In this document: positions 28,088-29,531 of the stretch, piece after piece
Numbering within the stretch: position 1 is the first letter of the stretch
How the letters are laid out: every line of letters begins with the position of its first letter
Assembly (NCBI GenBank): GCA_017882285.1
Contig: JADGPS010000014.1
Coordinates: 1-48,742 of the forward strand
Direction of reading: 5' to 3'
Source: Paludibacter sp.
Lineage (GTDB): Bacteria; Bacteroidota; Bacteroidia; Bacteroidales; Paludibacteraceae
Length of the DNA stretch: 48,742 nucleotides
Translations under genes and position numbers: made by a program
Notes under the pieces: generated by a model
The model's input: the letters and a program-made list of their open reading frames with translations, nothing else
Database searches by the model: none
What the model was told of the DNA's origin: nothing

Positions 28088-28159
28088 CGCGGAGTGGAGC
28101 AGTGGTAGCTCGTTGGGCTCATAACCCAAAGGTCGTTCGTTCGAGTCGGACCTCCGCAA
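28088..28159 (+). tRNA. tRNA-fMet (initiator, anticodon CAT)
   Basis: A full cloverleaf of 72 nt: acceptor CGCGGAG / CTCCGCA, D-arm GAGC-AGTGGTA-GCTC, anticodon arm TTGGG-CTCATAA-CCCAA, variable AGGTC, T-arm GTTCG-TTCGAGT-CGGAC. Initiator hallmarks are all present: the C1 x A72 mismatch, the A11:T24 pair in the D-stem and three G-C pairs next to the anticodon loop. The CCA end is not encoded (the next bases are CTA). A terminator and a GIY-YIG gene follow directly. Confidence 0.95.
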
Positions 28160-28242
28160 CTAGCAAGGAATGTTTACAAGCATTCCTTTCTTTATTAAAG
28201 TCAATTGAAATGTTTTATGTTTACGTTTTATATAGTGTTGAT
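28136..28242 (+). repeat. Direct repeat copy 1: tRNA 3' part, terminator and start of GIY-YIG gene
   Basis: This 107-bp stretch recurs at 28492-28598 with a constant offset of 356 bp and no gaps; I count about six differences. It covers the T-arm and acceptor 3' strand of tRNA-fMet, the terminator, and the first 11 codons of the GIY-YIG gene. Weaker similarity extends leftward to the tRNA D-loop. Confidence 0.9.
28165..28196 (+). terminator. Terminator of tRNA-fMet, copy 1
   Basis: AAGGAATG (28165-28172) pairs with CATTCCTT (28181-28188) over an 8-base loop, followed by TCTTTATT. It separates the tRNA from the nuclease gene. Confidence 0.75.
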
Positions 28243-28458
28243 TATCAAAGAATCTATATTGGATTTACATCAAATATAGAATCGAGACTTTTTGCACACA
28301 ATCATCCTTCAAATAAAGGTTGGACTAAAAATTTTCAACCTTGGAATATTTTATATACTGAACAATATGAAAATAAATCTGATGCAATGAAAAGAGAAAA
28401 ACAATTGAAGTCAGCAAAAGGAAGGGAATTTATTAAAAATTTAACTTTAAAGGTGTAG
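28210..28458 (+). CDS. Single-domain GIY-YIG nuclease (COG2827 / YhbQ-like)
   Basis: An 82-residue protein starting MFYVYVLYSVDYQRIYIGFT. The VYV...YIG strands are the GIY-YIG core, IESRLFAHN carries the conserved Arg and the His/Asn turn, and TEQYENKSDAMKREKQLKS carries the candidate catalytic Glu with the family helix. Such small proteins lack an extra DNA-binding domain, and their role is not established; relatives include UvrC N-domains and homing nucleases. The frame upstream of the ATG runs through the tRNA and terminator and is not coding. The stop codon TAG lies in the D-loop remnant of the downstream tRNA copy. It is preceded by a terminator, so expression may need read-through or its own weak promoter. 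Confidence 0.85.
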   Translation: MFYVYVLYSVDYQRIYIGFTSNIESRLFAHNHPSNKGWTKNFQPWNILYTEQYENKSDAMKREKQLKSAKGREFIKNLTLKV

Positions 28459-28515
28459 TTCGTTGGACTTATATCCGCCAGCTGGCGGACTTTCGTTCGA
28501 GTCGGACCTCCGCAA
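28453..28515 (+). pseudogene. Decayed tRNA-fMet remnant with palindromic insertion
   Basis: Bases 28453-28466 resemble the D-loop to anticodon-stem part of the upstream tRNA (GTGTAGTTCGTTGGA versus GTGGTAGCTCGTTGGG). The anticodon loop and 3' anticodon stem are replaced by a perfect 16-bp palindrome TCCGCCAGCTGGCGGA (28474-28489). From 28492 the T-arm and acceptor strand are intact up to the CTCCGCAA end. The acceptor 5' strand and half the D-stem are missing, so it cannot be a working tRNA. Confidence 0.85.
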
Positions 28516-28598
28516 CTACAAAGGAATGTTTATAAGCATTCCTTTTTTTATTAAAGTCAATTGAAATGTTTTTTGTTTACGTTTTATATAGTATTGAT
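28492..28598 (+). repeat. Direct repeat copy 2 of the tRNA 3' part, terminator and GIY-YIG start
   Basis: Second copy of 28136-28242, offset 356 bp. It includes an intact terminator (28521-28552: AAGGAATG / CATTCCTT then seven T). Identity stops at about 28598, ten bases before the stop codon of the convergent DMT gene. Confidence 0.9.
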
Positions 28599-28604
28599 TC
28601 CTAA
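28566..28604 (+). pseudogene. Truncated second GIY-YIG gene, first 12 codons
   Basis: ATG at 28566 encodes MFFVYVLYSIDS and then a stop (TAA 28602-28604). The first 11 codons match the intact upstream gene except two substitutions. The remainder of the gene is gone; the DMT exporter gene begins on the opposite strand. Confidence 0.8.
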
Positions 28605-28607
28605 ATA

Positions 28608-29531
28608 CTATTCTTGTTTTTTTGCTCTTTCCGCTTCCAATTGTGCTCTGGATTTACTTTGAGTAACAATATATACACCTGCAAAAACCAGTACGGATGA
28701 CAATGCTTTTTCAACACCAAAAACATCGATGCCAATGGCAACAGCTACCATTGAAGCTACAATGGGTTGAACGTAATTGTACATACTCAAGGTTGTTGGG
28801 CGTAGCACTTTCTGACCGAGGGGAAGGAATAAATAGCCCAAAAAGGTGGCAAAAATGACCATGTAGCCAATTCGCCAGTAAGTTCCGGTAGTGAGTAATG
28901 CAAAATCAGTTTGAATAAGTGGTTTATAACAAAAAGGAAAACAAACGATTGTGCCAAATAGAAACATCCACTTCATAACCGTGATGGAGGAATAGCGCGT
29001 TATCAGATTTTTGAAAAGCGTGAGATAAACTGCAAATGAAGCAACTGCACCGAAAATAATCATATTTCCCAGAAAATTACTTTTCCCGACATGAACCGTG
29101 TGACTGTTGAAAACCAACAACAAAGCACCGGAAGCTCCTACCAACACTCCTACTGCTTTCATTAATGTGATAGGTTCCTTGATAATCATTGCTGCCAAAA
29201 TCATGGTAAGAATGGGTAACATGGTAATCACGATGGAGGCATCGATAGGAGAAGTCATTGACAACCCGATAAAATAGGGCAATTGATTCAATGTGAGCCC
29301 AAACAAGGATGCGAAAAACAACAAAAAAAGGTCTTTTGCCGGCACATGTTCTTTTTTGACAAAAACCGAAGCAATCCAGAAAAGCAACATTCCGCCTCCA
29401 AGTCTGAAAAACGTAAGCGTGTACGGACTTAAAATTTCAGGCATTAAAGTCCTTGACACAGGTATATTTAAGCCAAAAATCACATTAGCCGAAAACATAG
29501 CTATATGTCCGTTGAGTTTATTTTTTTCCAT
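28608..29531 (-). CDS. DMT-family (EamA) membrane exporter
   Basis: A 307-residue inner-membrane protein with ten hydrophobic segments arranged as two EamA repeats of five. The first half shows the typical NVIFGLNIPVSRTLMPEILSP start and SPIDASIVITMLPILTMILA. The second repeat has YNYVQPIVASMVAVAIG near the C-terminus. EamA proteins export amino acids, nucleobases or other metabolites; the substrate cannot be told from the sequence. A minus-strand -7 box TACCTTTG lies at 29548-29555, giving a short leader. The 3' end abuts the duplicated tRNA/GIY-YIG segment. Confidence 0.87.
   Translation of the reverse strand: MEKNKLNGHIAMFSANVIFGLNIPVSRTLMPEILSPYTLTFFRLGGGMLLFWIASVFVKKEHVPAKDLFLLFFASLFGLTLNQLPYFIGLSMTSPIDASIVITMLPILTMILAAMIIKEPITLMKAVGVLVGASGALLLVFNSHTVHVGKSNFLGNMIIFGAVASFAVYLTLFKNLITRYSSITVMKWMFLFGTIVCFPFCYKPLIQTDFALLTTGTYWRIGYMVIFATFLGYLFLPLGQKVLRPTTLSMYNYVQPIVASMVAVAIGIDVFGVEKALSSVLVFAGVYIVTQSKSRAQLEAERAKKQE

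Follow-up and report, generated by a model that had tools for sequence, protein, structure and literature searches.

Why is the gene of an initiator tRNA followed by a very small nuclease gene and by a piece of the same tRNA gene? This question is raised by positions 28088-28599 of a 48,742-nt stretch of contig JADGPS010000014.1 from Paludibacter sp. (the window; all window coordinates are positions in this stretch), where an initiator tRNA gene, a terminator, an 82-aa GIY-YIG nuclease gene and a partial second tRNA copy follow each other. A first-pass annotation had proposed a mini-element that targets tRNA genes, with a tandem duplication as the main alternative. We lean, with modest confidence, towards the view that the locus belongs to a family of minimal selfish elements with a single gene, each made of a homing-type GIY-YIG nuclease and a duplicated part of a tRNA gene.

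The intact, functional tRNA-fMet (CAT) lies at 28088..28160 on the + strand, like all stranded features below (ARAGORN; Rfam RF00005, 60.9 bits). It is followed by a terminator-like hairpin at 28165..28189, seen in the sequence as an inverted repeat and then a T-rich stretch, and by the gene of the 82-aa single-domain nuclease, whose protein we named P0001, at 28210..28458 (PF01541, E 7.2e-17). The tRNA-fMet, terminator, 82-codon gene and partial second copy reported by the first-pass annotation were thereby confirmed. The second copy is a pseudo-tRNA-fMet at 28455..28516, delimited by alignment and repeat comparison, which covers the tRNA from its position 18 as far as the 3′ end. Gapped alignment places the onset of similarity at that position, in the D-loop (window 28455), where the annotation had put it, and the nuclease open reading frame (ORF) does take its stop codon, a TAG, from this D-loop remnant. 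The annotation had called the second copy decayed. Instead, alignment and motif search showed that 10 nt, the 3′ anticodon strand and the variable loop, are precisely replaced by the perfect 16-bp palindrome TCCGCCAGCTGGCGGA (28474..28489, no strand), which interrupts the pseudo-tRNA. The repeat then continues into a second terminator-like hairpin, a copy of the first (28520..28544; z 15.8 for the 45 nt 3′ of both copies), and into the first ~11 codons of a second nuclease copy, the remnant of a former tandem unit (28566..28599; 52% tblastn match, 478-540 nt behind the tRNA start). The direct repeat 28131-28243 / 28487-28599 spans 113 nt ungapped at 93% identity. Its offset is exactly 356, as claimed, and its length is slightly greater than the claimed 107 bp.

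The ~350-bp unit has room for the GIY-YIG gene alone. In an Rfam scan of 27900-28700 the tRNA was the sole match above the gathering score, and the nuclease ORF stands alone, in no self-splicing intron or intein context. No integrase was recognised on reading the ORF list of 24000-33000, where no profile search was made. Elsewhere in its own genome, the tRNA-fMet probe found one match only, its own partial copy (28492-28556). There are 45 tRNA matches in this genome, and each of its two small GIY-YIG genes lies directly 3′ of a tRNA (one fMet, one Pro). Among the 30 best-scoring of the 45, five were flagged for an extra partial tRNA copy within 700 nt, namely the two GIY-YIG elements, two that on reading are solo hairpin copies (Leu and Gly) and a marginal Thr case. 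With 5 of these 30 flagged, chance does not account for the layout. The Leu and Gly copies (L278 and L254) are hairpin-interrupted partial copies beside intact tRNAs, without a nuclease, and we propose that they are relics or gene-less derivatives.

The nuclease family and its tRNA genes

Forty relatives were searched with the Pfam GIY-YIG model, and 47 of the matches lay in open frames shorter than 250 aa. We read 37 loci, 36 of which hold 39 of the 47 matches; the other is L006, with a 553-aa frame. Twenty of the proteins were made into profile A1 and searched against 99 genomes of the class and 61 of the phylum, and 33 named contigs were added with a narrower profile, A2. The sample has one genome per species and consists of draft contigs. 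The A1 counts are counts among the matches listed; loci were taken mostly down the score list, and some arrays were chosen deliberately (e.g. G182:C34, G182:C23 and G164:C14). The family set contains 192 distinct GIY-YIG genes at 65 bits or more, obtained with a profile trained mostly on tRNA-side members. Genes for tRNA-fMet were separated from other CAT tRNAs by their first bases, by reading.

A same-strand tRNA lies within 400 nt of 146 of the 192 genes, and an opposite-strand tRNA in 3 of 192. Counted per locus, the figures are 135/165 and 3/165. A tRNA or tRNA fragment was present in 172/192 nuclease contexts versus 8/84 control windows of the same loci. Chance proximity of nuclease and tRNA is ruled out by the strand bias and the control windows. 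Low-scoring GIY-YIG genes (<55 bits) had a same-strand tRNA in 9/32. The first-pass annotation had suggested looking for homologues beside tRNA genes with matching partial duplications, and this check was strongly positive: such adjacency was found across Bacteroidota and in several Patescibacteria contigs.

The family nucleases are free-standing proteins of ~80-95 aa. In 20 aligned sequences, columns Y5, Y16, R26 and H30 are invariant and E63 is present in at least 90%; we take these to be the catalytic positions of the GIY-YIG domain. The domain spans residues 1-72 of 82, and Pfam gives nothing further. The intron-endonuclease model TIGR01453 matches 11/20 family members, P0001 not being one of them. 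The nuclease coding sequence is under purifying selection. Within arrays, pN/pS was 0.19 for eight copies (28 pairs) and 0.18 and 0.17 for two 3-copy arrays; two array pairs gave 0.04 and 0, and two further pairs, with very few changes, gave 0.75 and an undefined value. These low values of the array copies indicate that the protein is kept by selection. Among three Chryseobacterium copies the value was 0.11.

The subfamilies of the nuclease follow the identity of the tRNA. In a tree of 116 of the 192 genes, from which those without a significant tRNA copy were left out (83 columns, many weak forks), the isotype label changes 50 times among 20 labels, versus a shuffled mean of 87.4 with 0/200 shuffles as low. 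The fMet nucleases form a clade with SH-aLRT 98 that unites 10 fMet rows and one other Met(cat) row from several families. Target switches also occur within clades; the eMet clade, for example, has Thr, Phe and Leu rows as well.

Occupied and empty tRNA-fMet loci, which the annotation had suggested comparing in close relatives, coexist within the genus. The tRNA-fMet probe matched 37/40 genomes, and 30 fMet loci were examined by blast, 17 of which were read. Nuclease sequence was detected at 8 of the 30, a pseudo-tRNA only at 2 and neither at 20, three of these 20 ending within 420 nt of the tRNA start. On reading, the 8 include broken nucleases, with an in-frame stop (L224), a frame shift (L235) or only a fragment left (L231). 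The two pseudo-tRNA-only loci are L237, where the hairpin copy occurs twice in tandem, and L242. The empty locus L228 and the occupied locus L238 have the same upstream neighbour (both with an 83% tblastn match to the protein of window 26868-27962) and share the downstream start of one protein, presumably SecDF.

The nuclease genes are also amplified in tandem arrays, of 8 units at L182, 3 each at L083 and L130, and 2 each at L033, L034, L035 and L085. L182 (G182:C34:5800-11000) consists of eight ~365-bp units of fMet-type nuclease and hairpin pseudo-tRNA, and ARAGORN finds no intact tRNA in this array stretch. At L035, an array of tRNA-Val-like genes with altered anticodon regions (AAA or undetermined) is interleaved with two identical nucleases.

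Mirror layouts and possible local duplication

Two layouts were found. Form A, the type of the window, has the order tRNA, nuclease, pseudo-tRNA, and a significant copy of the same tRNA (score above the best of 60 shuffles) was present in 95/114 tested cases. Form B is its mirror image, in which a pseudo-tRNA that is a 5′ stub is followed by the nuclease and an intact tRNA; here 27/34 had a significant copy. Six genes are counted in both forms and 21 in B only. The anticodon labels used number 27 in form A and 24 in form B, with one undetermined in each. What is missing from most pseudo copies is the acceptor 5′ strand in form A and the 3′ part in form B. Both layouts look as though a tRNA gene had received an insertion: part of the gene is doubled, and one intact tRNA is left.

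In form B, the sequence before the intact tRNA was compared with the upstream region in 20 cases and was unrelated in 15, related in 4 and intermediate in 1. Duplication of the promoter region in form B is thus mostly absent. Twelve of those 15 intact tRNAs begin within 24 nt of the nuclease end. Because they lie so near the nuclease without an upstream copy, the form-B tRNA is probably transcribed by read-through from the original promoter.

For form A, the 45 nt 3′ of the two tRNA copies were compared in 69 pairs: 42 were related, 24 unrelated and 3 intermediate. In some of the 24 unrelated pairs there is no terminator between the first tRNA copy and the nuclease gene, which begins immediately after it. 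In the fMet set the 3′ sequence of both copies is nearly always related (z 13-22 in 7/9 rows); L014/L238 gave an intermediate z of 3.9, although the L238 terminator stems differ by eye.

Related sequence 3′ of both fMet copies is what local duplication predicts. In this explanation, a resident nuclease promotes or accompanies unequal recombination, the extra copies decay, and the gene is inherited vertically without homing into other tRNA genes. It agrees with the start of a second nuclease copy inside the window repeat, with the arrays of 2-8 units, and with the related flanks of the 42 pairs and of most fMet cases, the window included. SegB itself drives such tandem amplification in phage T6 (PMC13096335). 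Related 3′ sequence in most fMet cases adds weight to local duplication and takes some from homing, and we regard local duplication as a possibility to be taken seriously, although rather improbable as the whole explanation. It does not fit the mirror form B, the unrelated flanks in 24/69, the 50 isotype changes among 20 labels on the tree, the patchy occupancy within one genus, or the relatives, described below, that lie at tmRNA genes or within RNase P RNA and protein genes. The tandem duplication named by the first-pass annotation covers the arrays and the related 3′ sequence, which is only part of the data.

The hairpin in the pseudo-tRNA

A stem of 7 bp or longer (loop no larger than 8) was present in 61/95 form-A pseudo copies, versus 16/95 functional tRNAs and 4/95 shuffled sequences, and this excess rules out random decay of the second tRNA copy. 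For form B the counts are 14, 7 and 0 of 27. The contrast in form A is weaker at a looser cut (6 bp, loop up to 6; 67, 33 and 16 of 95), and in 15/95 form-A and 5/27 form-B cases the longest stem of the tRNA exceeds that of the pseudo copy. GC-rich hairpins are ~10 times denser 3′ of the nuclease (104 in 39,359 nt) than elsewhere in the same loci (97 in 381,733 nt).

Of 116 hairpins, 83 could be placed. All 8 placed fMet hairpins lie at one site, +8 to +8.5 from the anticodon start, and the hairpin stands in place of the anticodon arm in 10/11 Val and 9/14 Pro copies placed. The Asp hairpins are split (6 T-side, 4 anticodon-side), as are those of Arg (4 D, 4 anticodon, 1 T). A single hairpin position for every tRNA type is not borne out by these mixed copies. 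After 19 of class 'other' were left out, 64 rows entered the class count. The palindrome class changes 10 times on the nuclease tree (shuffled mean 23.1, 0/300 as low), and shuffling within isotype only gave a mean of 14.7 with 2/300 as low. The hairpin location follows the tree more weakly, with 19 changes (shuffled 23.0, 2/300; within isotype 24/300).

A dispersed 16-bp palindrome, TCCGYCAGCTGRCGGA, has 8 matches in the genome of the window, that of the window among them. It was found in 8/20 genomes, with 8-14 copies in three, 1-2 in five and none in 12 (G000, G004 and G029 are among the carriers), and the reversed pattern, used as control, gave zero matches. Of 16 places read, 12 are not spanned by any frame of 80 aa or longer.

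REP palindromes are tied to RAYT proteins, which are HUH tyrosine transposases. By analogy, the nuclease and the GC palindromes could be one mobile system, in which the nuclease would recognise or resolve palindromes and reside in hairpin loops, and the dispersed palindromes would be its derivatives without the gene, like the REPs of RAYT systems. The two systems are alike in having GC palindromes linked to a nuclease gene; here, however, Pfam finds GIY-YIG only, not an HUH/Y1 transposase, and the link is only correlative. That the palindrome class tracks the nuclease tree, also within isotype, argues for this system, as do the inverted repeats beyond shuffles around several non-tRNA relatives and the eight copies of the window motif in its own genome. 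On the other hand, the motif does not go along with the nuclease. G029 has 10 motif copies, but its two Pfam GIY-YIG matches sit in long frames (609 and 370 aa), whereas G001 and G025 have small GIY-YIG genes and zero motif copies. In addition, inverted repeats of 13 nt or more occur in at least 30/186 GIY-YIG loci, and that of L329 stays within the shuffles. The genome distribution does not support palindromes as simple companions of the nuclease, and we retained this explanation just as a rival, which we consider unlikely.

An RNA-level system would be another way to read the hairpin. The protein would act on the neighbouring tRNA or its precursor, and the hairpin pseudo-tRNA would be a decoy or antidote, as in toxin-antitoxin systems. 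The hairpins in place of the Val and Pro anticodon arms, the single fMet site and the subfamilies that track isotype are consistent with such a role. However, the pseudo copies mostly lack the acceptor 5′ strand or the 3′ part, relatives lie in protein genes and in rnpB, and GIY-YIG enzymes are known as DNA nucleases, which together make this explanation very improbable. Under the homing account, the hairpin is perhaps a protected or structural version of the target.

A proposed homing account, known systems and other sites

The homing account runs as follows. We infer that the nuclease cuts an unoccupied copy of its own tRNA gene, and that repair from an occupied copy puts the nuclease gene inside the tRNA gene. 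The extra tRNA part would rebuild an intact tRNA, so that the host survives; form A would bring the 3′ part, often with the terminator, and form B the 5′ part. Unequal recombination between the repeats could then give tandem arrays and solo pseudo-tRNAs, the arrays arising as with SegB in phage T6. The most economical account would be a chromosomal, catalytic-domain-only counterpart of SegB, which homes, keeps an intact tRNA, amplifies and decays. Of the mini-element proposed by the first-pass annotation, the tRNA association and the patchy occupancy stand, and its spread by cutting the tRNA gene is still presumptive. Our results go beyond that proposal in the many tRNA types, the mirror layout, the hairpin interruption and the relatives at tmRNA, RNase P RNA and protein genes.

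Seg nucleases have a separate DNA-binding region behind the catalytic domain, and SegB is larger than the 82-aa protein. SegB of phages T4 and T6 is a free-standing GIY-YIG homing endonuclease that cuts within tRNA genes (PMC13096335; PMC2988022). T6 SegB with its catalytic residues is needed for tandem amplification, and in the authors' model the tRNA 5′ region recombines with the segB 3′ region (PMC13096335). The present family resembles SegB in the GIY-YIG domain, the absence of an intron, the position among tRNA genes and the tandem units of nuclease and tRNA part. The junction topology of that recombination also matches the junction here, from the nuclease 3′ end to the tRNA D-arm. In contrast to the phage-borne SegB, the present nucleases are on bacterial chromosomes, consist of the catalytic domain only and fall into subfamilies that go with tRNA types; an intact tRNA is accompanied by a copy that a hairpin interrupts, and the layout has a mirror image. 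We do not claim that the family belongs to the Seg group, given that there is no DNA-binding region and that UPF0213 and Slx1 are the closest relatives with solved structures.

Integrative elements use tRNA 3′ ends as attachment sites. As in those elements, the tRNA 3′ part is duplicated here as a direct repeat and the tRNA is left intact. They differ from the present locus, where no integrase was seen on reading the ORFs around it and the unit is ~350 bp, and from the family, in which the duplication often begins in the D-arm and often takes in the terminator, and a mirror form exists. The only solved structures matched were UPF0213 and Slx1 (PDB 1zg2, 1ywl and 7cq2; E 4.5e-12 to 7.3e-6). These share the catalytic core, whereas the Slx1 chains are longer (183-324 residues). 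Their biology concerns rDNA copy number and DNA repair (see also PMC1564403) and is not known to be tRNA-linked. Among the matches listed in a search of open-access PMC text, no description was found of chromosomal GIY-YIG genes flanked by a tRNA and a pseudo-tRNA.

Several results weigh against homing. Only 21/37 of the Pfam-sample loci read have a same-strand tRNA within 400 nt, and the figure of 76% in the family set comes from profile A1, itself built largely from tRNA-side members. The related 3′ sequence in 42/69 form-A pairs and throughout nearly all of the fMet set counts in the same direction. Some form-B calls are doubtful; at L098 and L145 the downstream tRNA that ARAGORN calls 'intact' reads as a hairpin copy. 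The 82-aa protein has no separate DNA-binding region behind its catalytic domain. The presumed target is still present in the intact tRNA, and the account explains neither self-protection nor the hairpin. No near-identical nucleases from different families were found in the 116-gene tree (median end branch 0.54), and therefore no recent horizontal jump was caught. The nuclease had no matches in plasmids, 12/50,697 phage records matched at <35% identity, and the one phage neighbourhood opened had no annotated tRNA. In PHROGs, one weak match was found among 4 proteins. A plasmid or phage origin was itself rejected, given the zero plasmid and few, weak phage matches.

If the homing account is true, essential tRNA genes of a major bacterial phylum, including the initiator tRNA, are often occupied by a very small selfish gene, which would have a simple solution to entering an indispensable gene without killing the host. 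The family would then offer a tractable model of nuclease-target co-evolution, given subfamilies tied to tRNA types, and of gene amplification at tRNA loci. It could likewise serve to study how tRNA fragments with hairpins, which a tRNA gene finder misses, arise. The system is also relevant to how target specificity could be acquired by a catalytic domain of ~80 residues.

Twenty high-scoring genes had no detected tRNA. L101, L202, L220, L146 and four copies of the L182 array read as tRNA-like. At L176 and L215 the nucleases lie directly 3′ of tmRNA genes (RF00023; 173.6 and 180.2 bits), with two small GIY-YIG genes in tandem at L215. RNase P RNA genes (RF00010) were found in two genomes, at L331/L173 and L332 (157.8 and 196.9 bits), with the GIY-YIG gene between inverted repeats of 21 nt (L331) and 26 nt (L332). 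These repeats around the gene place it in the loop of a stem near the 5′ end of this essential ribozyme; in our reading of the sequence, the 5′ strand of the outer helix of the RNase P RNA would lie upstream of the nuclease. With at most one mismatch, the inverted repeats are 21 nt at L331, 26 at L332, 17 at L036, 16 at L084, and 13 at both L092 and L330, versus 10-11 nt for the best of 20 shuffles; that of L329 is no longer than in shuffles. Repeats of at least 13 nt were present in at least 30/186 GIY-YIG loci tested, mostly tRNA-side ones, where we take them for terminators or hairpins, and the short (13-nt) cases are therefore weak proof.

A related subfamily, A3, is flanked by inverted repeats and splits protein genes. 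At L038 a PDDEXK_3 profile is broken between positions 25 and 26 without loss, the left piece being just under the cut-off. At L036 a HEPN gene is split; its left piece covers positions 2-56, whereas no convincing match was obtained for the right piece. The nucleases of L092, L330 and L329 split genes by reading only. From such relatives one could propose a new class of minimal mobile elements, in which a Slx1-related single-domain GIY-YIG nuclease enters DNA that can form hairpins in genes of essential RNAs (tRNA, tmRNA, RNase P RNA), the RNA is kept working by a carried tRNA part or a stem-loop site, and GC palindromes are a mark or gene-less offspring. We hold this wider proposal to be doubtful.

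Some further observations were made at these loci. L036, L038, L084, L092 and L330 have inverted repeats of 13-17 nt, that of L038 by reading only, and their nucleases split protein genes or stand between genes. At L006, by reading, the GIY-YIG domain lies in frame within an apparent type I restriction HsdR subunit; this kind of insertion into HsdR is reported in a 2006 survey (PMC1564403).

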